From: an uncultured Clostridia bacterium
GTDB taxonomy: Bacteria; Bacillota; Clostridia; TANB77; CAG-508
NCBI GenBank assembly: GCA_947632535.1
Contig: CANRPR010000006.1
Coordinates: 1 to 49,911 of the forward strand
DNA length: 49,911 nt
Reading direction: 5' to 3'
Shown here piece by piece: positions 25,556 through 43,338 of the stretch. Under the pieces are notes generated by a model. That model did no database searches and was not told the DNA's origin. It saw nothing but the letters and a program-made list of their open reading frames with translations. A program made the position numbers and the translations under genes. The first letter of the stretch is position 1, and each line of letters opens with the position of its first letter.

Positions 25556-25584
25556 ATTATAGCTGATTTCAGAATAAATGTCAA
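25556..25584 (-). promoter_or_regulatory. Early promoter A
   Basis: The reverse strand carries perfect TTGACA (25579-25584), a 17-base spacer and perfect TATAAT (25556-25561). It lies 74 bases before the J-domain gene. Upstream sequence (25576-25631) is almost identical to that of the 43.3 kb promoter. Confidence 0.88.
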
Positions 25585-25643
25585 TAGTTTTTGAGAAAAA
25601 AGTTATACAAAAGTTTTATGTTTTTATTGTATATATTATACAA
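25576..25643 (-). promoter_or_regulatory. Conserved early control element, copy A
   Basis: The 56 bases 25576-25631 match 43271-43326 without gaps except for one ten-base stretch. Just upstream lies a perfect palindrome TTGTATA-TAT-TATACAA (25627-25643), and a half-site TTATACAA recurs at 25603-25610. The arrangement suggests a common regulator acting at both early promoters. Confidence 0.75.
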
Positions 25644-25655
25644 TATAACAAAAAG

Positions 25656-26204
25656 CTATAAACTTTGCTTTTTTTTGTACTTTTCTTCATATTCTTGTCG
25701 GTCTGTTAGAATATTCGCCCAATTTATAGCTTTTTGTCTCTCTTGTGCTGCTTTCCGTTTTGGGCTCTGATTTGCTTTCATTATTCTGTCGCACATCTTT
25801 TTATAATGTTTTGCACAAACCTTTTTGCCGTCAACTCTCGGCTCATCGCAGTAAAGACACAAATTGTTTTTTTCTTTAAAATCGTGCTTTTCTTGGGTTC
25901 TGGCTCTCAGCTCTCTGTATCTTTCCATATCTCTTTTTTTATAATTTATATAACATTCATAACAACATATTGTACTTTTTTCTGCATATATAGGCTTTTT
26001 CCCGCAGTGAGTGCAAATCCCTTTTTCTTTATCTCTATAATACTTTTCCCTTTTGTGTTCAGCACTTTTCTTTTTCTGTTCTTCTGGCAAGTCTCGCCAT
26101 CTTCGCTCTTTTTTTACATAATCATTGATACAGTCAAGAAACTTGCAGTTAAAACAATCCATATTACATATTTGCTTTTTTGTCTTTGAAATTTTGTCGT
26201 TCAT
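25656..26204 (-). CDS. Cys-rich zinc-binding-like protein
   Basis: This 182-aa, basic protein has at least three zinc-like clusters: CNMDCFNCKFLDC near the start, GICTHCGKKPIYAE with CCYEC in the middle and NNLCLYCDEPRVDGKKVCAK further on. Arg/Lys-rich helices lie between. Similar proteins with CxxCG...C repeats are common in clostridial phages and mobile elements and are unassigned; nucleic-acid binding is likely. It is the last gene before early promoter A. AGGTGAATTGAA precedes the ATG. Confidence 0.72.
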   Translation of the reverse strand: MNDKISKTKKQICNMDCFNCKFLDCINDYVKKERRWRDLPEEQKKKSAEHKREKYYRDKEKGICTHCGKKPIYAEKSTICCYECYINYKKRDMERYRELRARTQEKHDFKEKNNLCLYCDEPRVDGKKVCAKHYKKMCDRIMKANQSPKRKAAQERQKAINWANILTDRQEYEEKYKKKQSL

Positions 26205-26231
26205 TTCAATTCACCTCATTTTATTATTTTT

Positions 26232-26471
26232 TTAAATATCTAAATCAATTAGCATATTTAATAATTCACGATATTGCCAAGAACTTAACCGCAAACTGCT
26301 TCCGTGCTTATACACATAGTTTACTTTTCCTGTTTCGTCATCTTTGTATGCCGTCCGCTGTGTTATGCAGATTTTACCGTTTTCCATCGTACTCACAATA
26401 ATTGATAAGTGTGGATTTATTTCGTAACAGCCGACTGGACGATATTTCTTTTTTATTTGCTTATTTTTCAT
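26232..26471 (-). CDS. Hypothetical protein, possibly PC4-like
   Basis: This 79-aa protein has a beta-rich body (NPHLSIIVSTMENGKICITQ; VYKHGSSLRLSSWQYRELLN) that ends in a helix. The order of strands, then GxSLxLSxxQWxxL-like helix, resembles the PC4/YdbC ssDNA-binding fold. This is only a pattern match. It follows ThyX in the early operon. Confidence 0.6.
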   Translation of the reverse strand: MKNKQIKKKYRPVGCYEINPHLSIIVSTMENGKICITQRTAYKDDETGKVNYVYKHGSSLRLSSWQYRELLNMLIDLDI

Positions 26472-26482
26472 ATTTGTTTTTT

Positions 26483-27127
26483 TTACTCCTCGATTTTAAT
26501 ATCATCAAAAATAATTGGTATCTTTTCTTGCAATTCTTTTAAAAGCGGTATCGTTATTTGCCGCATTTGTGGGTGTGCATTTTTAGCCGTTCTTAATTTA
26601 AAGAAATGCCGCCACTCTGTATAGTTTGTGGTCATTACTAATTCAGTTTTTAAAGAATTTGGTAAAACGGCTCTTGCTTCCTGTGGAGTCGCTCCGTTTT
26701 TAATTAATTCAAAATAACACTTTTCTGCCTGCTTAGCCTGTTCTTTCCACAACTGATAAGCCCATCTATCCTCACTTTTATTTTCATCAAATAACGGCTT
26801 TATATACGTTATTTCATTATCGAATTTATCTAAGACATAATTACAATATCTCGTACTTTCCTGTGCATAGCTCGCCAGTCTATGTCTTACGATTTCGTGA
26901 GATACCCCTCTGTCAACTACAAACTTCACTGATAAAAAACTATGCTCAATTATAGCTGAATGATTATTTGCAATTAAATTAGCAACGAATTTCTTTGCAC
27001 TATCATCTGTAATATTATTTTCGGATTTATAACAAGTACGTCCGACCTTTTCAATAAATTTTAATTCATTAATCCCACCGTCTGAAATTGGCGTTAATAT
27101 TTCATAATAAGGTTCAATTATTTTCAT
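26483..27127 (-). CDS. thyX: Flavin-dependent thymidylate synthase
   Basis: This 214-aa protein has the ThyX motif RHRLASYAQESTRYCNY at residues 81-97, with the RHR triad and downstream Arg94, plus NHSAIIEHSFLSVKFVVDRG and RAVLPNSLKTELVMTTNYTE, all conserved in the family. It makes dTMP from dUMP with FAD/NADPH, boosting thymidine supply for an AT-rich genome. The start is the ATG at 27127 after GAGGTGCAAGACG; an in-frame upstream start is five residues longer. It lies in the early operon. Confidence 0.96.
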   Translation of the reverse strand: MKIIEPYYEILTPISDGGINELKFIEKVGRTCYKSENNITDDSAKKFVANLIANNHSAIIEHSFLSVKFVVDRGVSHEIVRHRLASYAQESTRYCNYVLDKFDNEITYIKPLFDENKSEDRWAYQLWKEQAKQAEKCYFELIKNGATPQEARAVLPNSLKTELVMTTNYTEWRHFFKLRTAKNAHPQMRQITIPLLKELQEKIPIIFDDIKIEE

Positions 27128-27341
27128 CGTCTTGCACCTCATTGAATATATTTAAATTTTTACATTTTTCAAAAAGATTTTCTGCTTGATTTTCTGTTAA
27201 TGTACCTTGTTTAACACCAAATGTAATAGTTTCTTTTATTTCATCATAGCTTTTGATATTAAAACATTTAAATATAAACAATAAAAGTAAATCATATGTA
27301 TCTAAATTAGAGTAATTTTTAAAAACATTATTTTCATTCAT
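27114..27341 (-). CDS. Hypothetical small helical protein
   Basis: This 75-aa acidic, helical protein contains LDTYDLLLLFIFKCFNIKSY and GVKQGTLTENQAENLFEKCK. Its start overlaps the previous stop and its end overlaps the thyX start, showing coupling. No family is recognised. Confidence 0.62.
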   Translation of the reverse strand: MNENNVFKNYSNLDTYDLLLLFIFKCFNIKSYDEIKETITFGVKQGTLTENQAENLFEKCKNLNIFNEVQDDENN

Positions 27342-27519
27342 TTGCTTTGTCCTCTATTATTTCAATTATTTTTTCAAAGCACATTGATTTTTCTGTTTTT
27401 ATTATATCTGATAAAATAGTTTTTTTATTTTCTGCACATTCTTTTTCAATTAATTTAATTCTGTTTTTCGTATATTCTATCTGATTAAGAATTAACGCAT
27501 ATTTTTCTTCATTCTTCAT
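27334..27519 (-). CDS. Small coiled-coil protein
   Basis: A 61-aa helical, charged protein (YALILNQIEYTKNRIKLIEK; CFEKIIEIIEDKANE). The ATG at 27519 is preceded by AAGGTGTCTCAAAA; the longer frame begins inside the upstream gap and is less likely. It overlaps the next gene by ATGA-type coupling. Function unknown. Confidence 0.6.
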   Translation of the reverse strand: MKNEEKYALILNQIEYTKNRIKLIEKECAENKKTILSDIIKTEKSMCFEKIIEIIEDKANE

Positions 27520-27535
27520 TTTTGAGACACCTTTT

Positions 27536-27886
27536 TTATCCTTTCGGAACAATTGTTACAATGTGTATTGTATAAGGACGGTCAAACATACTTGAAAACT
27601 CAGCACCAAAATTTTCTTTATTTGCATTATAACTATGCTTTATTTCGAAGTTTGTTATTAAATAATTTTCTGTATTATATTGTTTAGAAAATTCAGAAAA
27701 TGTGTATTGATAACTCTGCCCGTCAAAAACAATATAAATATTATCTGTAATTTTAATATAGCCATTTATAAACCGTTTTAAATTGATTTTTTCTCCGCTT
27801 TTTATTTTGTTGACATCTGCAATTAACTTTTTAGAATAAAGTAATCCAGTATCAGAAAATAAATTATTTTTATTTTTACATTTCAT
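27536..27886 (-). CDS. Hypothetical protein
   Basis: This 116-aa protein starts at the ATG at 27886, preceded by GGTGGAGAAAG; it overlaps the end of the upstream gene. The sequence is beta-rich in the middle (FINGYIKITDNIYIVFDGQS) with YTIHIVTIVPKG at the end. The style resembles the phage proteins that share LYSKKLIADVNKIKSGE, but no family or function is known. Confidence 0.62.
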   Translation of the reverse strand: MKCKNKNNLFSDTGLLYSKKLIADVNKIKSGEKINLKRFINGYIKITDNIYIVFDGQSYQYTFSEFSKQYNTENYLITNFEIKHSYNANKENFGAEFSSMFDRPYTIHIVTIVPKG

Positions 27887-28265
27887 CTTTCTCCACCATT
27901 TCTGTTGCTGGTACGTCAAATCCTATCCAGTATCTATTACTTGAATAGTTTTTAATGCTGTTTGGCGGTACAACCACAAATCCTAAATCTTTAAACCATT
28001 TAGCAACACTTTTACTTGGACAAAGCATACCTTGATATTTATTATTGTGTTTTATAGAAATTTCATTGAAAAAGTCCAAAAGAAGTCCATTAATCCAATC
28101 TATATCTGACATTGTTAATTCACTTTTAAGAAATTCTGTTTTGTCATCTTTCAAAAGTGGTGATAAATGATTTTCCGCTTTTTTTATCAATCCTTTTTTT
28201 CTTTTATGTCCATTTTTAATTTTCACCACCCTCAATACCAAAAATAACTTTAAATGTTTTTTCAA
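27876..28265 (-). CDS. YWIGF-family paralogue 2 (start uncertain, probable frameshift)
   Basis: The 129-codon frame shares YQGMLCPSKSVAKWFKDLGF, then VVVPPNS and NRYWIGFDVPA, with the protein at 29507-29845 (LRGIFCFDKNVAEYFKKIGF; NYWIGFGPP). The natural-looking start, ATG at 28213 (MDIKEKK, like MDIEKKKN of the paralogue), is out of frame by one base in an A7 run (28194-28200). In-frame initiation would need a GTG near 28226 or TTG at 28265, neither with a good ribosome site. Function unknown. Confidence 0.6.
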   Translation of the reverse strand: MKKHLKLFLVLRVVKIKNGHKRKKGLIKKAENHLSPLLKDDKTEFLKSELTMSDIDWINGLLLDFFNEISIKHNNKYQGMLCPSKSVAKWFKDLGFVVVPPNSIKNYSSNRYWIGFDVPATEMVEKDEM

Positions 28266-28554
28266 AAGTCAATTGCAAATTCGCTATATTCATTGTATTT
28301 GTTTCGCCCTCGACCGTCAGCTTGCATTCTCCCTCACGGTCTATTTGTATTGTTTTTATTTGTACATATCCTAAATTTATTTTTTCATCACTATCTGCAA
28401 ACCTTATAACACATCTTACTTGCTTACCGATTTCAGGCTCTATTCTTATCCAGTTAGCTATTTCTGAAAATGGAAACCGAAAACGCACAGTGGAAGTACC
28501 ATCTTTTTTTGTGTTTGAATTGTCGAATATTCCGACTACAATTATTTTTTGCAT
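28216..28554 (-). CDS. Hypothetical beta-rich protein
   Basis: This 112-aa protein is predicted to be beta-rich (STVRFRFPFSEIANWIRIEP; VRCVIRFADSDEKINLGYVQ; ECKLTVEGETNTMNIANLQL) and may be an OB-fold-like or accessory replication protein. AGAAAGGAAAATAATT precedes the ATG. It lies directly after the nuclease-like gene. No family is recognised. Confidence 0.63.
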   Translation of the reverse strand: MQKIIVVGIFDNSNTKKDGTSTVRFRFPFSEIANWIRIEPEIGKQVRCVIRFADSDEKINLGYVQIKTIQIDREGECKLTVEGETNTMNIANLQLTFEKTFKVIFGIEGGEN

Positions 28555-28556
28555 AA

Positions 28557-29018
28557 TTATTTTCCTTTCTTGTTTTTATATCTTTGTTCCCGTTCTGCAA
28601 TCATTTTACTGCGTACTTTCTCACGATTACCCGAACGGATAACAGGCTTTTTATTTTCATTTTCAACAACGCAAAATATATCATCGTCATAGCGGTTTTT
28701 TATTTCGCCTGTTTTCAAGTATTCTGCAATCTGCGGAACGTCCTGCAATCGCATTGAAACTATTATTGCACCACCAATAAACTGATTAATAAACAACGGT
28801 AATTTGTGTGCGACCGCAGCGTTATAAAACAAAGTATTCAAATCTGCCTGTTTTATTGTAATTTGATTTCCATCTGTTGATTTTAATTGTGCTATTAAAT
28901 GTTCATTCTGTCCGTCCTCTTTTATAACGCCGTTTCCGCTTCCTGCAACACCTTTCATTCCAAGCGACCGCATTAACTCTTTTTCGTTTTTGAACCAATA
29001 TTTAACCTGTCTTTTCAT
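28557..29018 (-). CDS. PD-(D/E)XK-like nuclease / resolvase-fold protein
   Basis: This 153-aa protein contains GMKGVAGSGNGVIKEDGQNE followed by LIAQLKSTDGNQITIKQADL, the GSG...E...Q-x-K layout of restriction-like nucleases used as resolvases or Mrr/RecU-type enzymes; the final Q-x-K-S/T and ITIKQADL helix fit well. The Asp of the motif may be replaced by Glu. A basic tail ends RYKNKKGK. It stands near a RuvC-like gene, so the phage may carry two junction- or DNA-processing nucleases. Activity is inferred. Confidence 0.65.
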   Translation of the reverse strand: MKRQVKYWFKNEKELMRSLGMKGVAGSGNGVIKEDGQNEHLIAQLKSTDGNQITIKQADLNTLFYNAAVAHKLPLFINQFIGGAIIVSMRLQDVPQIAEYLKTGEIKNRYDDDIFCVVENENKKPVIRSGNREKVRSKMIAEREQRYKNKKGK

Positions 29019-29029
29019 ATACTTTTATT

Positions 29030-29215
29030 TTATATTTCAGAATAAACTTTCCGCTTGCAATTTGGACATTCTGATATACAGTAACAATCATTACGGCAGC
29101 CACTTTCTGTTTTATATTCATTTTTATTTGCTATGAATTCGCAGCCACAATAATTACAATGAAATTCTTTTTTTTGAATTGCTTCTAAATCTGCACCTTG
29201 TTTTATTATTTCCAT
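29030..29215 (-). CDS. Small zinc-ribbon protein, paralogue 2
   Basis: This 61-aa protein has two knuckles, EFHCNYCGCEFIANKNEY and CYCISECPNCKRKVY, with MEIIKQGADLEAIQKKE at the start. The start and knuckles are shared with the 65-aa protein at 40806-41003 (MKIIKQGKELNTKIERK; CCGICGCEYIAEQGEYY), so they are paralogues 12 kb apart. The likely role is zinc-mediated binding; target unknown. Confidence 0.7.
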   Translation of the reverse strand: MEIIKQGADLEAIQKKEFHCNYCGCEFIANKNEYKTESGCRNDCYCISECPNCKRKVYSEI

Positions 29216-29240
29216 TTTTTAATTTTCCTTTCTTTTAATT

Positions 29241-29504
29241 TCAATTAATATATTTATGCATTCTTACATATCTATTTATTTTATCTTTTGTTGGCATTGA
29301 TTTTTCATATTCTTCCCATTCTTCTTTTGAAGTTTTAACATTAATCCACTGCTTACAGTTTGGACATCTCATATTACAATAATATTCATATGGAAGATTA
29401 CATTTATATTCACGTCTATATACTCTATATTCATTTTTTTGCGCTATAAATTCATAACCGCAATTTTCACAACAAAATTTCTTTTCGTTTTCATTTACAA
29501 ACAC
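29241..29504 (-). CDS. Small zinc-ribbon protein, paralogue 3
   Basis: This 87-aa protein shares CCENCGYEFIAQKNEYRVY and YYCNMRCPNCKQWINVKT with its neighbours at 29030 and 40806, plus a charged 30-residue tail. It starts at GTG (29504) with GGAGAATTAAAA before. Adjacent to paralogue 2, it suggests local duplication. Confidence 0.68.
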   Translation of the reverse strand: MFVNENEKKFCCENCGYEFIAQKNEYRVYRREYKCNLPYEYYCNMRCPNCKQWINVKTSKEEWEEYEKSMPTKDKINRYVRMHKYIN

Positions 29505-29506
29505 TT

Positions 29507-29845
29507 TTAATTCTCCTCTCTAATTTTCTTCCTTATTTTCGGCGGTCCAAAACCTATCCAATAATTAACGCTCAGCCGGCGAAGATTCTCACTTGGAGAA
29601 ATAACCACAAAACCTATTTTTTTAAAATATTCAGCAACATTTTTATCAAAGCAAAATATCCCACGAAGACTTTTGAAATTTCCTTTTATAATGTCATCAT
29701 AAAATTGCTTGTTGATAACCCAAATACAAGAAACTTCTTCTATTGTTAGTTTGCTTTTGCTGAATTCTTTATTTTCATTTGCAATAATTTTGTTGATTTT
29801 TTTTATTGATTCTAAAATTAAATTTTTCTTTTTTTCTATATCCAT
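29507..29845 (-). CDS. YWIGF-family paralogue 1
   Basis: This 112-aa, basic, helical protein has LESIKKINKIIANENKEFSK at the start, LRGIFCFDKNVAEYFKKIGF, VVISPSENLRRLSVNYWIGF and an end PPKIRKKIREEN. It is the intact relative of 27876-28265. The ATG at 29845 follows GAGGAGAATTGAAA. It lies just after the RuvC-like gene. Function unknown. Confidence 0.65.
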   Translation of the reverse strand: MDIEKKKNLILESIKKINKIIANENKEFSKSKLTIEEVSCIWVINKQFYDDIIKGNFKSLRGIFCFDKNVAEYFKKIGFVVISPSENLRRLSVNYWIGFGPPKIRKKIREEN

Positions 29846-29847
29846 TT

Positions 29848-30357
29848 TCAATTCTCCTCTTTAAAAAGCTTTGGATTTTTATTAAAATTCAATCCGCTTA
29901 TCGCTATACAAATAGAGTCTGCTATATCGTCACAAAAATAATAATTATATCGCTTTAAAATATATTCTACTGATACATCTTTATCACCTTGTTTTTTGCC
30001 CTTTTTATGACCGCAAACTCTCGCTTTCCACGAAGCTGTATCTACCGAATATACTTTATGTGGAAAACAGCTATCAACTATTTGTGCCACTAATGCGCCT
30101 GTTGATTTTATATAATCATATGAAATAAATTTTTGAGAAAATAAACGTATTCTTTCGCAAATAATTAAATCAGGATTATATTTATTACAGATGTCACACA
30201 TAGTTTGATATATTTTTGTCCGCATTTCTGTTTTTGATTTTGCTTTTTTAAAATCTAAATTAAAACAATTAATTATTTCTGCATTTTCTACTGTATCACC
30301 TTTTACAATTGCTATTCCTGTATTTGTATAACTTTCATCAATTCCTATTATTATCAT
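29848..30357 (-). CDS. RuvC-like Holliday-junction resolvase
   Basis: This 169-aa protein starts IIIGIDESYTNTGIAIVKGD with Asp7 as the first catalytic residue, has PDLIICERIRLF with Glu68, and FCDDIADSICIAISGL with Asp143/144/147. This is the RuvC/RNase H-fold layout. It would resolve branched replication intermediates before packaging. It lies between a zinc/paralogue cluster and small genes in the early operon. GGAAGAAAATAA precedes the ATG. Confidence 0.88.
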   Translation of the reverse strand: MIIIGIDESYTNTGIAIVKGDTVENAEIINCFNLDFKKAKSKTEMRTKIYQTMCDICNKYNPDLIICERIRLFSQKFISYDYIKSTGALVAQIVDSCFPHKVYSVDTASWKARVCGHKKGKKQGDKDVSVEYILKRYNYYFCDDIADSICIAISGLNFNKNPKLFKEEN

Positions 30358-30503
30358 TTATTTTCTTCCTGTACCCATTTTGACATTTCTTTTATTGCAT
30401 TTACTATATCTTCATTTTTTAAAATTTCTGTTTTTATATCTTGCATTAATTTTTCCTGAAAATTTTGATGTTCCGCATTTTCTATTATTTCAAATAATTT
30501 CAT
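30354..30503 (-). CDS. Small helical protein before the resolvase gene
   Basis: A 49-aa frame begins at the ATG at 30503 (KLFEIIENAEHQNFQEKLMQ) and ends with a TGA overlapping the resolvase start, so coupling is likely. It also overlaps the upstream gene. It is purely helical and charged; function unknown. Confidence 0.55.
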   Translation of the reverse strand: MKLFEIIENAEHQNFQEKLMQDIKTEILKNEDIVNAIKEMSKWVQEENK

Positions 30504-30706
30504 TTTATTTGTGATAACTTTTCCCATTCTGCAAAATCCTCACTATCAAAATTATTTTTCATTGAATGTATTGCTATCCAATCATAAACATCAAAAACAT
30601 CTTTTATTTTAAAGTTTTTCATTTTTCTAACTGGATAATTATATCGGTCTGAAAAATATTTTATTGAATAATGTAAAAACCTTTTCTTTTTAATTCGCTT
30701 ATTCAT
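30500..30706 (-). CDS. Small basic protein
   Basis: This 68-aa protein has a basic start (NKRIKKKRFLHYSIKYFSDR) and an acidic end (SMKNNFDSEDFAEWEKLSQ). It overlaps both neighbours by a few bases. The N-terminus could bind nucleic acid; no family is recognised. Confidence 0.6.
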   Translation of the reverse strand: MNKRIKKKRFLHYSIKYFSDRYNYPVRKMKNFKIKDVFDVYDWIAIHSMKNNFDSEDFAEWEKLSQIK

Positions 30707-30869
30707 TTTTGTCCTCGCTTTCTGTTTCTTTTTTTAGCTGCTTTTTAATTTCTGTAATTTCATCAAACAAATTATAATTTTTATTTCTGCATTTTTCATT
30801 TGCATTTATTTTGTTTAATATATTTTTCAATTCCGTTCCTGCTAAAACAGCAAAATTAAAGTTATCCAT
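30699..30869 (-). CDS. Small helical protein
   Basis: A 56-aa frame from the ATG at 30869 (DNFNFAVLAGTELKNILNKI) to a TAA overlapping the next start. It is charged and helical (EITEIKKQLKKETESEDKNE). Operon context supports a real gene; its function is unknown. Confidence 0.55.
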   Translation of the reverse strand: MDNFNFAVLAGTELKNILNKINANEKCRNKNYNLFDEITEIKKQLKKETESEDKNE

Positions 30870-31052
30870 TTATTTTATTCCTTTTATATCATATTCAAAT
30901 TGTTTTTCCCATGAAAATATTTCAAGTGCTTTTGCTAATTCTTGACTGCTTACCAATTGACTCTTTGCAACGGATTTTAATTTTGCTATGCCCTCACTTA
31001 GTGACTTTTTATTCTGTTTTATCCAACTATTCACAAAGTCAATATTCTTCAT
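30870..31052 (-). CDS. Small helical protein
   Basis: This 60-aa protein (VNSWIKQNKKSLSEGIAKLK; AKALEIFSWEKQFEYDIKG) is helical and basic, with GGAGTAGGTGAAAAA before the ATG. It follows the Cas4-like gene. Function unknown. Confidence 0.58.
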   Translation of the reverse strand: MKNIDFVNSWIKQNKKSLSEGIAKLKSVAKSQLVSSQELAKALEIFSWEKQFEYDIKGIK

Positions 31053-31056
31053 TTTT

Positions 31057-31842: not shown

Positions 31843-32768
31843 TTTGTGCCGTACCTTTCACGCTCTTTTTGCATTAATTCTTTTCTTATCGGTTGAATAT
31901 CATCGAACGATACAAAGCCTCTATCAAAAAATAACGGTATTTCACATTCTCCAAGCGGATTACAAACCTTTGATTTTACAACTTTACATTTTAATATTAA
32001 ACCGACATTTTTTTCTTTAGCTGAATTTGACGTGTCATACTTGTTAGGTATCTTTATCCAATCAACTCTATTGACTTGTATTCTCAAACTGCAATAATGC
32101 TTTAATGCTCTGCCCCCTGGCGTGTGTGTTTGTGGCGCAAACATCATAGCGTTCATTTCATCTCTTAATTGATTGATAAATATCCAAGTCGTTCCCATTT
32201 CTTCCGCTTTTGCAACTATTTTCGGCAGTTTGCTACTCAATAACGCCGCTATACGTCCACGCTGCGCTTCTTTCTCGAAGTCCGTTTCTTCAAATTCTTT
32301 GCGTGTTATCATTGATGGAACACTATCTATTACAACTAAGTCTCCGCCCGCTTTTGTAAACGTCCAACCCTCTTTCAAGGCTTCCTCTCCGACATTTGCT
32401 CTTGACACAAATAACTGCCCTCTGTGATTTCCGAATATTTCTGCCCGCTCTGCCGAGAACGACCCCTCAATCGGTATATCAAGCACCATTTCGCATTGTG
32501 ACATCAAATGATATGCAAGCGTGGTTTTCCCTGCGCTTTCTGCACCGTATATTTCAATTATGCGTCCTTTGGGAATACCGCCGCCGATTATATCGTCAAG
32601 CTGTTCAATGCCTGTACTCCAACGAGGAATTTTTAAATTTGCTTTTTCAGAACCTAAAGTATATACAGTGCCAATACCGAACTCTGCGTTTATTTGTTTC
32701 ATAGCTAAAAGTACATTTTGCCGTTTTGATAATTTTTTATCGTATTTATACTGTTCCATTTTAGCCAT
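31839..32768 (-). CDS. recA: RecA-family recombinase
   Basis: This 309-aa protein has Walker A YGAESAGKT at about residues 74-82, a Walker B strand DLVVIDSVPSMITR and WIFINQLRDEMNAMMF followed by TPGGRALKHYCSLRIQVNR, matching RecA INQxR...GGxALKFYxSxRL. The N-terminus of about 45 residues is short and the C-terminal domain is reduced compared with bacterial RecA. It forms filaments on ssDNA for strand exchange and replication restart. It is between the nuclease gene and a 110-aa unknown protein in the same operon. Confidence 0.94.
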   Translation of the reverse strand: MAKMEQYKYDKKLSKRQNVLLAMKQINAEFGIGTVYTLGSEKANLKIPRWSTGIEQLDDIIGGGIPKGRIIEIYGAESAGKTTLAYHLMSQCEMVLDIPIEGSFSAERAEIFGNHRGQLFVSRANVGEEALKEGWTFTKAGGDLVVIDSVPSMITRKEFEETDFEKEAQRGRIAALLSSKLPKIVAKAEEMGTTWIFINQLRDEMNAMMFAPQTHTPGGRALKHYCSLRIQVNRVDWIKIPNKYDTSNSAKEKNVGLILKCKVVKSKVCNPLGECEIPLFFDRGFVSFDDIQPIRKELMQKERERYGTK

Positions 32769-33093
32769 TATTTTTAGACCTCATTTCTTTTATTTTTTCT
32801 TTTACTGTTGCTTTATCCAGAAATGCGGTCTTATTAATATCCTCGTTTGTAATATCACGACTCTGTACATATTCGCCGACTTTTAATTTATCATTGTGCG
32901 ACCATACGACTTTACAATCCATAAGCACATAAAGCACTTGATAATTTTGATTTATATACATTGCTTTTACTTTGCCTTGAATTATTGCAGGATTTTTTTT
33001 CTGTCCGACAATATACCAAATATCCTGTTCAAAATTTAATTTTATTGTCGCATTAATATTTACTGGAACGACTCGATATTCTAATTCTGACAT
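32761..33093 (-). CDS. Hypothetical protein before RecA
   Basis: This 110-aa protein has a beta-rich body (VVPVNINATIKLNFEQDIWY; LYVLMDCKVVWSHNDKLKVG) and a helical tail (KATVKEKIKEMRSKNN). It overlaps RecA by eight bases and is the first gene after the 33.1 kb promoter. AAAGGAGAATAAAAACA precedes the ATG. No family is recognised. Confidence 0.65.
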   Translation of the reverse strand: MSELEYRVVPVNINATIKLNFEQDIWYIVGQKKNPAIIQGKVKAMYINQNYQVLYVLMDCKVVWSHNDKLKVGEYVQSRDITNEDINKTAFLDKATVKEKIKEMRSKNNG

Positions 33094-33124
33094 TGTTTTT
33101 ATTCTCCTTTAATTAATTTATTTT

Positions 33125-33153
33125 ATTATAAAACATTTCCGCAAAAATGTCAA
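33125..33153 (-). promoter_or_regulatory. Promoter upstream of the RecA unit
   Basis: The reverse strand shows perfect TTGACA (33148-33153), a 17-base spacer and perfect TATAAT (33125-33130), 31 bases before the first gene. It does not share the 56-bp control element of early promoters A and B, so it may be constitutive within the early region. It follows the polymerase stop rather than a terminator. Confidence 0.85.
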
Positions 33154-33208
33154 TAATAATTTTGGAAAATTTCTAACAAGAATTTATTATTTTTATTGTT
33201 TATTTTGT

Positions 33209-37058: not shown

Positions 37059-37085
37059 AAGTAAATTTCCCTTTCTTTATTTACT

Positions 37086-38180
37086 TTAATTTTTTAACCA
37101 CTGATTATAAATCTCTGTTGATAATTGTGCCATCATAACAGGCGGTACACTCATACCACAAACATATTGCACGCTTTGTCCCATGAAATTGTAATCTTGC
37201 GGGAATGTTTGTATATTTATACTGTCTTCATTCGACAATAACATACCATCATACATCCTAAAAAATACTCCACCACTCGGCAAAGTTGGCGCTATTTTAT
37301 TGTCGCCAAGAATCATATTATTAAATCCGCTTTTTTTGCCGTGCACTCGCTTATAAATATCTGATATGCAACTATCGGACTTAATTCTATATTTTATCAA
37401 TTCTTTGTATAAAGAACCGTCTTTTAGCTCTCTTCCTTTTTCAGACCGAACCTCACCAAACAAAATAGGTTTTTCATTGAATTGCAATTTTAATTTTGAT
37501 AAATTTAAATCGTTTCTACAACAACAAAAGAAAACTCGTTTTCTTTTTTGAGGTACTCCCATATAAGCAGAATTTAAACAAAACAATTGTACATTATAAT
37601 TTATTTCTTTGAGTCTTTTTATTATTTCATTGACATAGCCTTTTGCATTTCCTTTTATTAATCCTAAAACATTTTCAGCTATAATTATTTTTGGTTTTAA
37701 TTTTTCGGCAACATCAATAAAATAAAAAAATAAATCATCAAGTGTTTGTTTTTGTTGTCCCTCTCTGAATACTTTTTCTTTGCTCCAATCTTTTTCTCTT
37801 TTTCCTGCTACACTAAAAGAACTACAAGGCGGCGAACCGTCCAAAATATCCAAATTATATAATTCATCTGGCAAATTTTCTAATTTTGCAAATTCCCTTA
37901 TATCCATTAAATAACTATATTTCGGATTATGATTTAATTTATAAATTGACATCATCTTTTTATCAATCTCAACATTTCCGATAACCTCATACCCTGCCAA
38001 TTTATAACCCATTGTCGAACCACCGCCACAAGAAAAGCAGGAAAATACTTTTTTACCGTTTTTATTTACTTTTTCTAAATCTGTTAAATACCATTTCCAC
38101 GGAAATTTATGCTCCGAACCTAAATCCGCATTTTGGACATTGATATTTGAATTTATCGTTTGCAAATTCTTCCGTTTCAT
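37086..38180 (-). CDS. DNA cytosine-5 methyltransferase
   Basis: This 364-aa protein has the C5-MTase motifs in order: CFSCGGGSTMGYKLAGYEVI (I), DILDGSPPCSSFSVAGKRE with catalytic PC (IV), KIIIAENVLGL with ENV (VI), VPQKRKRVFFCC with QxRxR (VIII), then QTFPQDYNF and CGMSVPPVMMAQLS (IX/X). The target-recognition region is short. It overlaps the ParB-like gene by 74 bases with GGAG inside it. No cognate endonuclease is present, so protection from host restriction is the likely role. Confidence 0.95.
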   Translation of the reverse strand: MKRKNLQTINSNINVQNADLGSEHKFPWKWYLTDLEKVNKNGKKVFSCFSCGGGSTMGYKLAGYEVIGNVEIDKKMMSIYKLNHNPKYSYLMDIREFAKLENLPDELYNLDILDGSPPCSSFSVAGKREKDWSKEKVFREGQQKQTLDDLFFYFIDVAEKLKPKIIIAENVLGLIKGNAKGYVNEIIKRLKEINYNVQLFCLNSAYMGVPQKRKRVFFCCCRNDLNLSKLKLQFNEKPILFGEVRSEKGRELKDGSLYKELIKYRIKSDSCISDIYKRVHGKKSGFNNMILGDNKIAPTLPSGGVFFRMYDGMLLSNEDSINIQTFPQDYNFMGQSVQYVCGMSVPPVMMAQLSTEIYNQWLKN

Positions 38181-38619
38181 ATTCTTTTACTCCATTATTT
38201 TCGTTTTCATCAATATCAATATTTATATTATAATCTACATCAAAATCAAAAACAGAAAAATCAAAATCATCTGTATCAATTTTCTTTAATTCCTCTGACA
38301 ATATTTCAAGGTCAAAATCCGTGTCCATTGTTAGCTTGTTGTGAACTAAAGCATAAGCGATTTTCTGTTGTTCTGTCAAGCCTTTAATTATTATCACCGG
38401 AACGGTCTGCATTCCTAAACGCTTTGCAGCTTCATATCTGCCGTGTCCCTCAATTATAACGCCGTGTTCGTCAATTCCAAGAGGGTCATTGAAACCAAAA
38501 TCCTTAATGCTTTCCATTATCTGATTTATCTGTTTTTCTGTATGAATTTTAGCATTGTTTTCATACGGTTTTATTTTTTCAATTTTTATATTTTTAATCT
38601 GTAAATCTCTTTCCTGCAT
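38107..38619 (-). CDS. ParB/sulfiredoxin-fold protein coupled to the methyltransferase
   Basis: This 170-aa protein has a ParB N-domain: IEKIKPYENNAKIHTEKQIN, IKDFGFNDPLGIDEHGVIIE, GHGRYEAAKRLGMQTVPVII and NKLTMDTDFDLEILSEELKK. It has no HTH domain and ends CPKCGFRFGA, a zinc-like knuckle. This layout is the one found fused to, or paired with, phage DNA methyltransferases. The tail overlaps the methyltransferase start, so joint action is likely. Whether it cuts, hydrolyses CTP or binds DNA is unknown. Confidence 0.88.
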   Translation of the reverse strand: MQERDLQIKNIKIEKIKPYENNAKIHTEKQINQIMESIKDFGFNDPLGIDEHGVIIEGHGRYEAAKRLGMQTVPVIIIKGLTEQQKIAYALVHNKLTMDTDFDLEILSEELKKIDTDDFDFSVFDFDVDYNINIDIDENENNGVKEYETEEFANDKFKYQCPKCGFRFGA

Positions 38620-38633
38620 TTTTTACACCTCAA

Positions 38634-39353
38634 TTAAAATGGTACATTGTCGCTCAACATTTCAATTACTTCTTGACGGCTCTTGCCTGTGTAATCAAAT
38701 CCTCTTTTTTTACATTCAGCTTTCAAGTCTTTATTACTCCATTCGCTGTAATCTATTTCTTCATCTTCATCAAAGTCGCTTGTATCTGTAATCACATTTT
38801 CATTTCTTTTTCTGGACGGCTTTTCGTCCTCGTTATCGTCCGCAGGATAAGCGTTAAATACTATATCCATTATTTCGTCCTTTGTATACGGCTCTTCATC
38901 GCCCTTAAACGGCTTTTTATCAAGAGGTAATACAGTGTATACCGTGTCCGTTGCTTCGCCTTGACGTGTGATTATGTAGTCCCTGTCGCATATCGTGTTA
39001 TATTCTTCGTACATCGTAATCATTGCAGGAATAGGCGTGCATTTTGTAGCTTTGTACATAAACAGTTCCCTTTGCTTTGTTTCATAGTTCCAAATAGTAA
39101 ATACAAAATATTCAGCGGGTTTCGGGTCTTCCTTGCACCGTGGACACTCTTTACCGTACAATTCAAGGCAGGGGTGATTATATTCTTTCCATTTCGTATG
39201 GAACGGAATTACAACGCCTTTTTCCATATCAGTCAGAAATCTAATTCTTACTTTGCCATCTTTCTTGACATAGAAAATATTCGACATTCCTTTTCCCGCT
39301 TTTGAAATTCTGTCTTTCATCATTTGAACAATTGTTTTTGCACTTTCAGCCAT
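38634..39353 (-). CDS. ssDNA-binding-like protein (gp32-type) with SAP-like tail
   Basis: This 239-aa protein has a gp32-like core (KDGKVRIRFLTDMEKGVVIP; HPCLELYGKECPRCKEDPKP with a zinc-type CxxC; YFVFTIWNYETKQRELFMYK), an acidic linker (DTSDFDEDEEIDYSEW) and a C-terminal SAP-like helix pair (NKDLKAECKKRGFDYTGKSR). Its position beside the primase agrees with a replication SSB. AAAGGAGAAATTAAAA precedes the ATG. The fold is inferred from pattern. Confidence 0.78.
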   Translation of the reverse strand: MAESAKTIVQMMKDRISKAGKGMSNIFYVKKDGKVRIRFLTDMEKGVVIPFHTKWKEYNHPCLELYGKECPRCKEDPKPAEYFVFTIWNYETKQRELFMYKATKCTPIPAMITMYEEYNTICDRDYIITRQGEATDTVYTVLPLDKKPFKGDEEPYTKDEIMDIVFNAYPADDNEDEKPSRKRNENVITDTSDFDEDEEIDYSEWSNKDLKAECKKRGFDYTGKSRQEVIEMLSDNVPF

Positions 39354-39378
39354 TTTTAATTTCTCCTTTGTAATTAAT

Positions 39379-40323
39379 TTAAATTTCTATATTGAAACCG
39401 TGTTTATTTGCTTTCTTCACGGTATCACGCCAATATTTATTAAATTCATATTTATCCAAATCGCCCGTATCCTTTATATATTCAGGATATTTAAAGCGAA
39501 CTACATCAAAATAATTTCGTAAATATTCAGTACCTTTTTCGCCTGTTTCTGTATTGTCTAAAGCTGATATTACTTTATCGGTATATTGATATATTTTATT
39601 AATTTGCTCTTTTGTGATTTTCCAACCAAGAATTGCAACAGTATTTTTTATTCCGTATTGTAGCAATTTAAAATAATCCATTGAACCCTCAACTATTACA
39701 ACATATTCTGCTTTATAATTTCCAAACAATGTATTACGGCGGCTAAACCCCTCACCATATAAATATTTACGTTTTTTTTCTGTTTCTGAATTTGTCGCTC
39801 TGCATACGTAATTTATAAAATCGCCGTTTTCAGTTATCGGAAATATTATGCCATAATCACCATTAAAATTTTCTTTTGCACCGACCGCTTGTAATAATTC
39901 TGTTGTAAATCCTCGCTTTAACATATATTCTTTTGCAATACTTTTTTTTGTCCAATCTGTTTTTGGCAAACTATAATAATAACGCCTTGCTTCAAATAAT
40001 GCCTGTTCGGGATTTAGCTTTTTTACGGGCAGTATTTCAACGGATTTATTTGTTTTTTTATTCCGCAAAATACGCTCTAAAATAATCATTGCTTGCAAAC
40101 TATTACATTCTTCCATTTGCATTATAAAATCTAAAGCGTTTCCACTTGCACCGCAACCGAAACAATAATATTTGCCTTTAATTAAGTCTATTGACAATGA
40201 AGCATTGACGTCGCCGTGAAAAGGACAAATTAATTTCATTTTTTCAGCTGCGAAACCGTCAATAAAATTATAGTATTGTAAAACTTTTAAAAGCTGCTCT
40301 GACTCATTAATCTTTTGTATCAT
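39379..40323 (-). CDS. DnaG-type primase (CHC2 + TOPRIM)
   Basis: This 314-aa protein has a CHC2 zinc finger (LICPFHGDVNASLSIDL ... YYCFGCGASGNALDF, Cys33, His36, Cys54, Cys57) and a TOPRIM domain with VVIVEGSMDYFKLLQYGIKN and VISALDNTETGEKGTEYLRN. It lacks a C-terminal helicase-binding domain. It synthesises RNA primers for the phage replisome. Its start overlaps the end of the upstream gene. Confidence 0.92.
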   Translation of the reverse strand: MIQKINESEQLLKVLQYYNFIDGFAAEKMKLICPFHGDVNASLSIDLIKGKYYCFGCGASGNALDFIMQMEECNSLQAMIILERILRNKKTNKSVEILPVKKLNPEQALFEARRYYYSLPKTDWTKKSIAKEYMLKRGFTTELLQAVGAKENFNGDYGIIFPITENGDFINYVCRATNSETEKKRKYLYGEGFSRRNTLFGNYKAEYVVIVEGSMDYFKLLQYGIKNTVAILGWKITKEQINKIYQYTDKVISALDNTETGEKGTEYLRNYFDVVRFKYPEYIKDTGDLDKYEFNKYWRDTVKKANKHGFNIEI

Positions 40324-40777
40324 TTTCGGAAATATCGTTGTATTTCAAATATGAACTTGTTTTTATTTCAGTAAATTTCAAAACGTCCTTTTCTGTTATT
40401 CGCTCATCGTCAAAAGCCTTTTCTATTTTATTTTTATTTGGTATTCGGCTCACGCTAATTATTTGTTTTAGCCGTGATTTCATTTCTGGATTTTCAGACA
40501 AAAATTCGTTTAATGCCGCTCCATCAACCTCGTACTCTTTATCTGTTAAATCATTCAATAATTCTTTTGATAAATATTTACGCATATTTTCAATATCATA
40601 AATTAATTTATTAACTTGAATATATTGAACTTGCACGCTGTCACTATCATATTTTTTTACGTTCTTTTTCTGCATATAATTTTTTATTTTATTTTCCAAT
40701 TCTGTTTTTTCGTTTTCAAGTACAGATATTTGATTTTTTAATTCTGCACATTTTTCTATTGCCTGTTTTACAGTCAT
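40307..40777 (-). CDS. Coiled-coil replication-region protein, Gp157-like tentative
   Basis: This 156-aa protein begins with a coiled coil (KQAIEKCAELKNQISVLENE; ELENKIKNYMQKKNVKKYDS), then VQVQYIQVNKLIYDIENMRK. The layout, a helical start followed by short strands, recalls siphovirus Gp157-type proteins, but the match is loose. It overlaps the primase by 17 bases. CAGGAGTGAATTAAA precedes the ATG. Confidence 0.65.
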   Translation of the reverse strand: MTVKQAIEKCAELKNQISVLENEKTELENKIKNYMQKKNVKKYDSDSVQVQYIQVNKLIYDIENMRKYLSKELLNDLTDKEYEVDGAALNEFLSENPEMKSRLKQIISVSRIPNKNKIEKAFDDERITEKDVLKFTEIKTSSYLKYNDISENDTKD

Positions 40778-40805
40778 TTTAATTCACTCCTGTTTTTTAT
40801 TTTTC

Positions 40806-41003
40806 TTATCTTGACAAATTAGCGTCAACAAACATAACGCTTTTGCAGTTAGGACATTCGGAACAAAAATAAATACAACCGTGTTCATCTGTTTTTATAT
40901 AATATTCACCCTGTTCCGCTATGTACTCACAACCACAAATGCCACAACAAAATTTCCTTTCTATTTTTGTATTTAATTCTTTGCCTTGCTTTATAATTTT
41001 CAT
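40806..41003 (-). CDS. Small zinc-ribbon protein, paralogue 1
   Basis: This 65-aa protein begins MKIIKQGKELNTKIERKFCC and has CCGICGCEYIAEQGEYYI plus YFCSECPNCKSVMFVD, two CxxC knuckles 30 residues apart. It is the relative of 29030-29215 and 29241-29504. The MxIIKQGxxL start and CxxCGCEF/Y knuckle are common in Firmicutes phages and have no assigned role. Confidence 0.7.
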   Translation of the reverse strand: MKIIKQGKELNTKIERKFCCGICGCEYIAEQGEYYIKTDEHGCIYFCSECPNCKSVMFVDANLSR

Positions 41004-41009
41004 TTTTTA

Positions 41010-41186
41010 TCACTCCGAATTTTCTTTTTGCTTTTTGCATTTTTGCGCTAATTCTTCAAGCCGATTATAAATAGAATTTAATTCATTATATTCGTCCTGC
41101 GTTAAATTCTGGTCGCAAAATTCTTTATTAAATCGCTTTTTAATTTCGCCTAAATAACTGCCTATTGTGTCATATATTCTCAACAA
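41010..41186 (-). CDS. Small helical protein with TTG start
   Basis: A 58-aa frame begins at a TTG (41186) eight bases after AGGTG and ends at a TGA before the zinc-ribbon gene. It has a phage-like helical pattern (YLGEIKKRFNKEFCDQNLTQ; YNELNSIYNRLEELAQKCKK). The start codon is not ATG and it has no known relatives here, so it is moderately supported. Confidence 0.55.
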   Translation of the reverse strand: MLRIYDTIGSYLGEIKKRFNKEFCDQNLTQDEYNELNSIYNRLEELAQKCKKQKENSE

Positions 41187-41204
41187 TATTTATTCACCTA
41201 CCTT

Positions 41205-41429
41205 TTAAATTTTATTATTTTTAAACTGATTAACTAAATTTCTGTAACGTTCATTTAATTCAGATATATTATCACAACCTAAATGAAATTTATTTCCATC
41301 AACTGTATAAATTGTAATTACATTATTTAAATTAGTTTTTCTTTTTTCCAGTGCTACAACTTTATCCACATCAACTGTTAATCCATAATTGTCACCATCG
41401 GCGGTAATTGAAATAAATTCATTCACCAA
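41205..41429 (-). CDS. Hypothetical beta-rich protein
   Basis: This 74-aa protein is beta-rich (ISITADGDNYGLTVDVDKVV; ITIYTVDGNKFHLGCDNISE) with a helical end. AGGTGAAATTTGGTG-like sequence precedes it and it overlaps the upstream gene by 11 bases. Function unknown. Confidence 0.62.
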   Translation of the reverse strand: MVNEFISITADGDNYGLTVDVDKVVALEKRKTNLNNVITIYTVDGNKFHLGCDNISELNERYRNLVNQFKNNKI

Positions 41430-41964
41430 ATTTCACCTCCGAATTATTTCTGCTTTTCCATTTCAGCTGCTCATATATTTGGTGCGGTAAAAATCTACTT
41501 GTTTTTACCCACGCTATTTTTGATACTGGTACTTTAAAAAATGTGCCTTTTCTACTCTGACAAATTACTGTTTTTACATTGCCGTCTGTATCTCTGTATA
41601 TTTCTGTTGCCTTTGCCGATGTTGCTTTATCCTTTTCAAAATTAAATATTATTATATCTCCGATTTTTACGTTATTAATATAATCAGCTTTTGTTTTTCG
41701 TTCACCGCTATATTTATTATATTTTTCAGTACAAAGAATTTCGACCTTTTCATTTTCCGCATTATTTTCATTTTCTTTGCAAGTACAATGTTCACACGGC
41801 AGATTACATTCACATTTATTTTCGTTCTCAGATTTACCAAAAGCTAAAATATTTTCTATTAATTCAGATTTTTTCATTTTGTGCCGTCCTTTTATATTAT
41901 ATTCTTTTGCAATCTCCAAAAGTTCATTTACAGTCATTGTTTCAAGTTCATTTTTGTTTTTCAT
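41419..41964 (-). CDS. SAP-like and KOW/Tudor-like protein
   Basis: This 181-aa protein has an N-terminal SAP/Rho-N-like motif (MTVNELLEIAKEYNIKGRHK, KMKKSELIENILAF), a Cys cluster (ENKCECNLPCEHCTCKE) and a C-terminal domain reading NNVKIGDIIIFNFEKDKATS, KGTFFKVPVSKIAWVKTSRF, then PHQIYEQLKWKSRN. The C-terminal pattern is common in phage proteins near ssDNA-binding genes. The ATG at 41964 follows AAAGGAAAATATATT. It is probably a DNA/RNA-binding replication accessory. Confidence 0.72.
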   Translation of the reverse strand: MKNKNELETMTVNELLEIAKEYNIKGRHKMKKSELIENILAFGKSENENKCECNLPCEHCTCKENENNAENEKVEILCTEKYNKYSGERKTKADYINNVKIGDIIIFNFEKDKATSAKATEIYRDTDGNVKTVICQSRKGTFFKVPVSKIAWVKTSRFLPHQIYEQLKWKSRNNSEVKFGE

Positions 41965-41986
41965 AATATATTTTCCTTTCTGTATT

Positions 41987-42136
41987 TTAATTTTTTTCTG
42001 TAAGTACACCTAAAGTTAAAAATGCTATCATTAACAAGGCGGTACAGTCTTTGGTGATTACTGCTGATATTATTCCGACTAAAATCAAAATTACCGCTAA
42101 AAATTTTTGTTGCCTTACATACTGTTTTTTACTCAT
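41987..42136 (-). CDS. Small membrane protein
   Basis: A 49-aa frame with a basic start (SKKQYVRQQKFLAVILILVG) and two hydrophobic stretches (AVILILVGIISAV and LLMIAFLTLGVL), likely a small membrane protein with one or two spans. Its ATG overlaps the stop of the upstream gene. It is short and in the early region; a superinfection or host-interaction role is possible. Confidence 0.6.
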   Translation of the reverse strand: MSKKQYVRQQKFLAVILILVGIISAVITKDCTALLMIAFLTLGVLTEKN

Positions 42137-42266
42137 TATTTTCACCTGCTTCATATTCATTTTTTAACTGATTTAAAATAACAATCATTTCACGCATCGT
42201 TATATAATTATGCTGATACAAATATATACAACGATTTGCAGATTTTTCAAATTGTTCTCTGTTCAT
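42129..42266 (-). CDS. Small helical protein
   Basis: A 45-aa frame (NREQFEKSANRCIYLYQHNY; MREMIVILNQLKNEYEAGEN) with stop-start overlap to the membrane protein gene. The phage-like operon packing supports it; no function can be given. Confidence 0.55.
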   Translation of the reverse strand: MNREQFEKSANRCIYLYQHNYITMREMIVILNQLKNEYEAGENNE

Positions 42267-42279
42267 TTTTACACCTTCT

Positions 42280-42453
42280 TTATTTTCTTGCCAGTTCCGC
42301 TTTCATCATTGCTTTTGTTGCCCTGACTTTTGCTTTATCTTGCTTTATCCATTCTTTGTATTCTTCATCACCATATAACTCATAACAAAAAATGGATTCT
42401 TCAAGCTTGTGTTTGGCTCTTTTTAAACCTTCGTTCAACTCATTCATATTCAT
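42280..42453 (-). CDS. Small helical protein
   Basis: A 57-aa frame from the ATG at 42453 (ELNEGLKRAKHKLEESIFCY; EEYKEWIKQDKAKVRATKAM) that overlaps the upstream stop as ATGA, a coupling signature. It is Lys/Glu-rich and helical. Function unknown. Confidence 0.6.
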   Translation of the reverse strand: MNMNELNEGLKRAKHKLEESIFCYELYGDEEYKEWIKQDKAKVRATKAMMKAELARK

Positions 42454-42773
42454 GACAGTTCAACTCCTTTTTTAATACTGTTTTCTTCTTCTGCAAGATA
42501 TACATCACACGTTCCGCAACCGTCTTGATCAACATAGCCATAATCAATGAGCCCGTATTCCTTGACATAATACAAACCGTTTACGCTGTTTTTCTGATAA
42601 CTACACTTAAACGCCTTCAAGGCTTCAACTGCCTTTTCTACTGTGTCATAGACATCAATTACATAATTAGAACAATCTAATCTGTCAAGTGTATCCCCCT
42701 TGCTAAATTTTTTAAATTCCTTTTCTGTCAACATTGTGAAACCGCTTCTGATTGCATATACTTTTTTCTCCAC
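42450..42773 (-). CDS. Hypothetical early protein
   Basis: This 107-aa protein has KVYAIRSGFTMLTEKEFKKF near the start and DYGYVDQDGCGTCDVYLAEE near the end. It is a mixed alpha/beta protein with two Cys close together. The YAIRxG...GxCDxYLA layout is found in clostridial mobile elements without assigned roles. It is the second gene after early promoter B. Confidence 0.65.
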   Translation of the reverse strand: MEKKVYAIRSGFTMLTEKEFKKFSKGDTLDRLDCSNYVIDVYDTVEKAVEALKAFKCSYQKNSVNGLYYVKEYGLIDYGYVDQDGCGTCDVYLAEEENSIKKGVELS

Positions 42774-42828
42774 AACTGTTCAACAACCTTTCTATTACTG
42801 TATTTTTACTGTGGGATTTACAAAGAAA

Positions 42829-43191
42829 TTATAAAAACAACTTACCCCATATCAAGCGTGATTTAAGTTCACTATATTGTTCAGGATATTCTGTAACCTG
42901 AGTAATATAGTGCATTTTCTCATCATAATATCTCTCAGCAGCTTTTTTAAAAAACTGCAAACCAAGATGTTCATCTGGTGTGGTGTGCATTCTAACCATT
43001 TCTTTTGCAACCTCAAATACATCGTCCGACCAAATAATTTTCTCAATGTCTCTGGGCAAAACATCACTAAACGCTTTCCACGCTTTTATCTGTCTAAAAT
43101 ACTTATCTGTCAATTGTTTTTCCTCTTCCGTCATATCCCTACAACCGTAAGACTCATCTTCTGGGGTAAAATAAACACTGTAATTTGCCAT
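42829..43191 (-). CDS. Hypothetical early protein
   Basis: This 120-aa protein starts at the ATG at 43191 (ANYSVYFTPEDESYGCRDMT), preceded by TAGGAAAACAGTT; the longer frame has no ribosome site. It has helical segments (DKYFRQIKAWKAFSDVLPRD) and ends KSRLIWGKLFL. It is the first gene of the early transcript, where phages place host-takeover proteins; that is inference from position. Confidence 0.65.
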   Translation of the reverse strand: MANYSVYFTPEDESYGCRDMTEEEKQLTDKYFRQIKAWKAFSDVLPRDIEKIIWSDDVFEVAKEMVRMHTTPDEHLGLQFFKKAAERYYDEKMHYITQVTEYPEQYSELKSRLIWGKLFL

Positions 43192-43250
43192 AACTGTTTT
43201 CCTACTTTCCAAACTGTTTTAGGGTTTTTGTTTTCCCTTATCTTGATTAT

Positions 43251-43279
43251 ATTATAACATACCCCTTTACAAATGTCAA
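43251..43279 (-). promoter_or_regulatory. Early promoter B
   Basis: The reverse strand carries perfect TTGACA (43274-43279), a 17-base spacer and perfect TATAAT (43251-43256), 60 bases before the first early gene and just after a strong terminator. It should start the main replication transcript. Its upstream region copies that of promoter A. Confidence 0.9.
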
Positions 43280-43338
43280 TAGTTTTTAGAAAAAATATTA
43301 TACAAAAGTTTTATGTTTTTATTGTACATAATATACAA
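43271..43338 (-). promoter_or_regulatory. Conserved early control element, copy B
   Basis: The 56 bases 43271-43326 match 25576-25631, differing only within one ten-base stretch. A near-perfect palindrome TTGTACA-TAA-TATACAA (43322-43338) and a TTATACAA half-site (43298-43305) recur at the same distances as in copy A. Confidence 0.75.

Follow-up and report, generated by a model that had tools for sequence, protein, structure and literature searches.

Four consensus promoters of a siphophage, here called P0 to P3, probably form one phage regulon: P1, P2 and P0 carry upstream an outward-facing dyad, RYACAA-N16-TTGTRYA, P3 carries a decayed copy of it, and, judged from the sequence, this dyad would be an operator bound by a dimeric, sequence-specific protein. 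The siphophage makes up the whole stretch of DNA that was analysed (the window), which is the 49,911-nt contig CANRPR010000006.1 (G000:C6) of a metagenome-assembled genome from an uncultured Clostridia bacterium (GCA_947632535.1). Its genes encode TerL, portal, capsid and tape measure proteins, an endolysin, a DnaE-like polymerase, a primase and RecA, and nearly all of them are on the minus strand. The promoters and dyads are located as follows.

25556..25584, minus strand: P1 core promoter, TTGACA-17-TATAAT (-35 at 25584..25579, -10 at 25561..25556).
25604..25632, minus strand: P1 dyad, ATACAA-N16-TTGTATA, with 18 bp from its 8-mer TTGTATAA to the -35 and its centre at about -69.5.
43251..43279, minus strand: P2 core promoter, TTGACA-17-TATAAT (-35 at 43279..43274, -10 at 43256..43251).
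43299..43327, minus strand: P2 dyad, GTACAA-N16-TTGTATA, with the same spacer as P1 and 18 bp to the -35.
49776..49804, minus strand: P0 core promoter, TTGACA-17-TATAAT, upstream of 49174-49752 and then of endolysin and holin genes.
49813..49841, minus strand: P0 dyad, ATACAA-N16-TTGTACA, 7 bp to the -35.
33125..33153, minus strand: P3 core promoter, TTGACA-17-TATAAT, upstream of 32761-33093 and a RecA-like gene.
33173..33201, minus strand: P3 dyad, degenerate, ACAA-N16-TTGT core only, 18 bp to the -35 as at P1 and P2.

Five perfect TTGACA-17-TATAAT promoters were counted in the window, three of which have a dyad within 80 bp upstream, as compared to a mean of 0.0012 for shuffled upstream regions (0 of 20,000 shuffles reached three). 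The dyad of P0 is an exact third copy and lies 11 bp, or one helical turn, nearer to the -35 than those of P1 and P2, the transcription starts of P0 to P3 being taken from the hexamer positions. A(-5) and T(32) are found in each of the three window dyads, and P1 and P2 show the complete extended consensus of A(-5), T(-1), A(28) and T(32). The dyad was spotted and first tested on overlapping data; independent of its discovery are the P0 dyad, the bases A(-5) and T(32), a class of sites close to the -35 and the scans of host genomes, the last two of which are described below.

The analysis followed up a sequence-only reading of the window that concerned P1 and P2. As it had stated, these two TTGACA-17-TATAAT promoters share an upstream block (25576-25631 and 43271-43326), which aligns without gaps at an offset of 17695 and in which the differences are confined to a single ten-base stretch. 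An identical segment of 29 bp (25603-25631 and 43298-43326) had no chance match in 100 shuffles. Since this upstream segment is identical (0 differences in 29 bp) while the 17-bp spacer between the -35 and the -10 has diverged (10 differences in 17 bp; Fisher p 5e-6), the comparison argues for selection on the upstream block, as had been proposed, and not merely for a young duplication. The same reading placed a palindrome and a half-site at equal distances from both promoters. Both elements are present, but the palindrome, which contains one mismatch at P2, is weak when compared to shuffles in this AT-rich DNA, which reached the P1 score in 14 of 300 cases and the P2 score in 119 of 300.

25627-25643, no strand: palindrome TTGTATANNNTATACAA of P1, exact, only its proximal arm being part of the dyad.
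43322-43338, no strand: palindrome TTGTATANNNTATACAA of P2, one mismatch, again with only the proximal arm in the dyad.
25603-25610 (P1) and 43298-43305 (P2): half-site TTATACAA.

The conserved unit at P1 and P2 is the dyad near -70, which is composed of the proximal arm of the palindrome and the half-site, 16 bp apart. P0 and the sites in other phages keep this outward N16 dyad instead of the 17-bp palindrome, which is not a consistent feature of the other phages' sites, and the palindrome was not upheld as the operator. In the host genome the palindrome occurs near control level. Nor was it correct that nothing else is conserved in the non-coding gaps: the start of the leader also matches between P1 and P2 (TATAATATAAT..AAGATAA, ..AAAACAG), and P3 is a diverged copy. 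P3 came from a repeat search, in which the region 33120-33206 showed 70% identity to P1 over 87 nt (61/87, as compared to 46/87 for the runner-up place on the same strand). Its upstream 61 bp alone match at 37 of 61 positions, which is not above the best chance places in the window, so that the register is the notable feature. The distal palindrome arm is absent at P3.

P1 stands at the head of the operon of the J-domain gene 24970-25482, with a later block running to the terminase, and P2 at the head of the replication module (primase, ParB-like protein, C5 methylase and DnaE-like polymerase), which is isolated by a terminator.

43359..43382, minus strand: intrinsic terminator directly upstream of P2, isolating the P2 operon.

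The earlier description of two early operons is thus too narrow, given replication genes behind P2, a block ending with the terminase behind P1 and P0 before the endolysin and holin genes. The idea of one regulator site for separate transcription units was supported, with a dyad at P0, P1 and P2 that may serve this role; further copies at other promoters are the exact dyad of P0, which that reading had missed, and the degenerate one of P3.

The route to the dyad was a scan for the leader motif AAGATAAA, by which we came upon L073/L076, an unrelated contig where two promoters have the same arrangement of upstream elements. As a promoter feature of hosts, this motif gave 16 matches in 16 genomes, as compared to about 13 in the control. 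We scanned viral sequences for TTGTAYAA located 14-24 bp upstream of a consensus promoter and obtained at least 94 distinct usable sites. Among the matches listed, TRYACAA was located 16 bp upstream of TTGTAYAA six times (including P1 and P2) and at most twice at any other distance, and all sites with the N16 pair had 18-19 bp to the -35; the half-site alone had no sharp preferred distance to the -35 among these matches, only the pair had one.

When the gap between RYACAA and TTGTRYA was left free in all fetched loci (2.1 Mb), the counts peaked at 16 bp, with a smaller, separate peak at 25-27 bp. With the 16-bp gap there were 31 unique sites, 23 of them with a promoter, as compared to 1-7 sites for most other gaps; many of these viral loci are fragments, and several of the dyad phages are relatives of each other. 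The distance from the dyad to the -35 was about 7-9 or 18-19 bp (7-8 bp in 12 cases, 18-19 bp in 11 and two outliers), and both the close class of 7-8 bp and arms of the type TTGTGCA fell outside the original viral search pattern. The bases A(-5) and T(32), neither of which was used for selection, were present in 22/23 and 23/23 of the sites with a promoter and in 4/8 and 2/8 of those without. The extended site, A-N3-T-RYACAA-N16-TTGTRYA-N3-T, is symmetric, which fits the expectation for a dimer. Whole-record scans recovered the dyad in 11 of 16 records with one to eight copies each, one of the 11 (G422) having a single one-strand match without a promoter, while the backward-pattern control gave none. 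Most of the promoters that bear the dyad have consensus -35 and -10 hexamers.

In three of these phages (L149, L190 and L207), several dyads are located between divergent promoters, 8-9 bp from one -35 and 18-19 bp from the opposite one, and the transcript on the 18-19 bp side often begins with a G/C-rich leader that looks structured.

No near relative of the window phage was detected. The closest ones found by protein, which were sought with TerL and DnaE, are Dulem virus 36, the Agathobaculum phages AB434P2 and AB434P3, the G182 phage contig and several IMG/VR contigs, with 45-66% amino-acid identity in the best proteins; a search based on RecA returned no relatives. These genomes contain many strong promoters with A-tracts directly upstream of the -35 but not the block, so that the pattern named in advance as speaking against shared regulation, promoters kept and block lost, was indeed found in the nearest relatives. 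It does not refute shared regulation, because the dyad recurs in unrelated phages of IMG/VR. An exact search of IMG/VR with 28 bp of the block gave no match, and with three mismatches allowed the block found one AT-rich look-alike in 390 host-family genomes besides the window. Elsewhere in the host assembly, dyads occur at control level and away from promoters, and in 144 other genomes of the host family nine extended sites were found, as compared to seven in the control, none of the nine with a good promoter (one, L221, has TTGACA at the close spacing).

The prime candidate for the regulator in the dyad-rich phages is, from sequence and structure prediction, a MarR-like winged-helix protein. 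Four dyad-rich phages have in common a protein family of 114-147 amino acids that is predicted to form a winged helix, and a fifth phage, L097, has a distant member. The structure model has a mean predicted local distance difference test score (pLDDT) of 81, with MarR-type regulators as the top solved match, a weak one (E about 3.5e-3), and the PHROG matches of the family include a MarR-family regulator. The profile of the family matched six long dyad-bearing contigs (G410-G413, G419 and G420) and one of eight control contigs; a search of named phages found no such protein. In five phages the gene follows a dyad promoter: it is the first open reading frame (ORF) after the promoter in L146, the next listed ORF at 200-530 nt downstream in L149, L190 (twice) and L207, and the second in L097, behind an ORF of 51 codons. 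Judged by gene order, this placement is what an autoregulated regulon protein would show, with shared descent accounting for part of it.

Several observations weigh against a common dyad system with this regulator. The dyad is absent from the nearest protein-level relatives of the window phage, and P0 departs from the extended consensus at one symmetric position, with C instead of T at -1. No homologue of the winged-helix protein was found in the window or the host assembly by hidden Markov model searches or profile-profile comparison. The dyad contig G414 had no profile match at E 0.001, its distant member having been added to the seed by eye, and the single-dyad contigs G415-G418, all four of them fragments, likewise had no match at this threshold. 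Lastly, some of the dyad phages have genes in common, and the association of regulator and operator is therefore partly one of descent.

In the window itself, scans of about 80-90 ORFs against Pfam and PHROG identified no CI- or Cro-like gene, in agreement with the earlier statement that no CI-like repressor is encoded here. The sole recognised helix-turn-helix (HTH) protein of the phage is a weak candidate for the regulator.

46907..47266, minus strand: HTH protein, sigma-70 region 4-like, matching PHROG transcription-regulator families.

For the first gene product of P2, which was considered as a possible regulator, the single-sequence structure model was of low confidence.

We propose the following mechanism. 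Each of P0 to P3 is a strong sigma-A promoter with a dyad operator upstream, and a single dimer per dyad would bind on the side of RNA polymerase that contacts the UP element through the C-terminal domain of the alpha subunit (alpha-CTD), at about -70 or -60, switching the promoters of the regulon together. The shared dyad would in this manner tie the replication genes (P2) to the block that ends with the terminase (P1) and to the lysis genes (P0). The TTGTATAA arm reaches into the distal end of the UP element at P1 and P2, and at P0 the arm lies one turn nearer, over its proximal part. Repression, or a timed shut-off of early transcription, seems slightly likelier than activation, because the hexamers are already perfect and P1 and P2 also have a UP element close to the consensus; such promoters would fire at once on infection and be shut off later, as with p4 of phage phi29 at A2b and A2c. 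That the same operator instead serves an activator of the class I type, which recruits RNA polymerase through the alpha-CTD, is a real possibility, although we lean against it. Class I activators such as CRP classically bind with their centres near -60 and -70, and the dyad centres lie near these values, one helical turn apart; the consensus -35 and -10 at most of these promoters, however, leave little to activate.

The regulator is probably encoded by the phage. A host transcription factor or nucleoid protein that reads the dyad would account for its presence in phages without a recognised winged-helix protein, including the window phage, but such a factor would be left practically without its own regulon, because the dyad occurs at chance level in host genomes. 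A host protein, which the sequence-only reading had offered as one option, is unlikely for the same reason, the dyads of host chromosomes not being at promoters.

No additional regulator would be needed if the block were only a UP element with A/T-tract curvature, to which the alpha-CTD binds.

25585..25606, minus strand: UP-element-like stretch of P1, 12/14 positions of the E. coli consensus.

From -59 to -38, the E. coli consensus is matched at 12 of 14 positions at both P1 and P2 and at nine at P3, a score of at least 12 being reached at 0.2% of the window positions, and the relatives generally have A-tracts directly before the -35. UP elements tolerate variation, however, and do not need an identity of 29 bp; the exact N16 dyad, the G/C-containing arms, the extended symmetric consensus and the two discrete spacings would all be superfluous, and we find this explanation improbable. 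A duplication or gene conversion between P1 and P2 did probably occur, because the 16-bp dyad spacer is identical and the leader is partly shared, and phage MT835524 has a similar cassette of 110 nt in three copies. That a recent duplication of one promoter cassette is the whole explanation, with an upstream part of no regulatory meaning, is very improbable in view of the diverged -35/-10 spacer next to an unchanged block, the P0 dyad, which differs in spacer and in position, and the dyads of unrelated phages. It is also highly unlikely that the 17-bp palindrome, TTGTATA-NNN-TATACAA, is an operator of the CI/Cro type: exact at P1 and near-exact at P2, it is not significant against the local composition, is absent at P0 and P3, inconsistent at the sites of other phages and not accompanied by a CI/Cro-like gene. 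Like the operators of lambda CI and Cro, it is a 17-bp odd-centred palindrome. Those operators, palindromes of 14-17 bp, come in several copies that overlap or adjoin the core promoter, whereas the palindrome here has two copies, each some 43 bp further upstream than the -35, and is not the conserved unit.

We compared the dyad to other known systems. The p4 protein of phi29 is a phage-encoded dimer that binds upstream of sigma-A promoters, coordinates several of them (early A2b and A2c, late A3) and acts with RNA polymerase, and its sites are inverted repeats of CTTTTT and AAAATG separated by 15 bp (PMC3100819). This is the closest analogue in the literature in terms of layout, with an inverted repeat of fixed spacer upstream of several sigma-A promoters. 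The window dyad has arms of 7 bp and a spacer of 16 bp at three promoters, and its arm sequence is RYACAA/TTGTRYA, not CTTTTT/AAAATG. The two helix-phased dyad positions would be compatible with a p4-type contact to the alpha subunit of RNA polymerase, the sign of which depends on position. The Pfam and PHROG matches listed for ORFs of the window include no p4-like family, and p4 has been described as a novel fold, whereas the candidate regulator of the dyad-rich phages is a winged-helix protein. Class I activators of sigma-70 promoters, such as CRP, likewise bind upstream of the core promoter, with helix-phased centres near -60 and -70. The dyad site, however, spans 29-40 bp with a 16-bp core spacer, as compared to TGTGA-N6-TCACA for CRP, and is found at consensus promoters that should need no activation, unlike class I sites. 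Repressors of the MarR type share the winged helix with the candidate, and the position of the candidate gene after a dyad promoter resembles autoregulated MarR loci. The typical MarR operator, in contrast, is a shorter palindrome overlapping the -35 and -10. The structural match of the candidate is weak, and no such protein was found in the window. A literature search for the arm sequences returned nothing relevant.

We suggest tentatively, with slightly less than even confidence, that the system is an undescribed one, in which a 40-bp dyad operator is combined with a small, often multi-copy and autoregulated winged-helix family, and in which a diverged or unrelated protein reads the dyad in the window phage. 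Upstream of its consensus sigma-A promoters the dyad would take either of two positions in helical phase, and it would be common to unrelated phages of Firmicute-like hosts, and one protein may shut off some promoters and drive others, which is the logic of phi29 p4 with a different protein. The transcription programme of most gut phages is not known, and an operator of rigid geometry lets regulons and time classes be read from sequence. For the dyad-rich phages a testable regulator can be named, and the coordination of early and later operons in phages without CI-like repressors becomes directly testable.

A second family of operators was observed in six other loci (L081, L085, L088, L089, L090 and L095), where dyads of about 40 bp, e.g., TGTACAAAATATACA..TGTATATTTGTGCA, with the gap peak at 25-27 bp, are located upstream of TAGACT/TATAAT promoters, the leaders of which can fold as TAAGATAAAGCAAGGG..CCCTTGCTTATCTTA.

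The leader that follows the -10 (TATAATATAAT..TAAGATAAAGCAAGGGGC) covers 25523-25555 and 43205-43250 in the window and is followed by a small G/C hairpin at P1. The P1 leader is shared with Dulem virus 36 (L042:49867), where the hairpin is missing, and with three promoter cassettes (25345-25454, 26563-26672 and 27487-27596) of the otherwise unrelated human-gut phage MT835524 (L046, MT835524.1). A related leader was identified in 26 IMG/VR contigs, and the shared leader may be an mRNA-stabilising 5' element.

In the P1 operon, 23992-24579 encodes an acidic protein with an AT-hook-like motif, KRKRGRPSKK, which is possibly a nucleoid-type protein. The family phrog_15863 is split over two genes, with its N-terminal part in 46127-46504 and its C-terminal part in the J-domain gene behind P1. 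A perfect direct repeat of 47 bp (22404-22450 and 23174-23220, 770 bp apart) is located at two gene starts and contains TTGTACAATGTATACCA. In the structural gene region, an inverted repeat of 45 nt with 73% complementarity and a 5-nt loop (12377-12471) lies immediately upstream of the perfect promoter at 12326. The late structural genes are preceded by a gap of 552 bp (17823-18374), which contains a promoter at 18201 and a leader that is long and A/G-rich. Finally, the ORF at 1-978 is cut by the left contig end and seems to resume at the right one (49753-49911), which suggests that the window may be a complete, circularly permuted genome.

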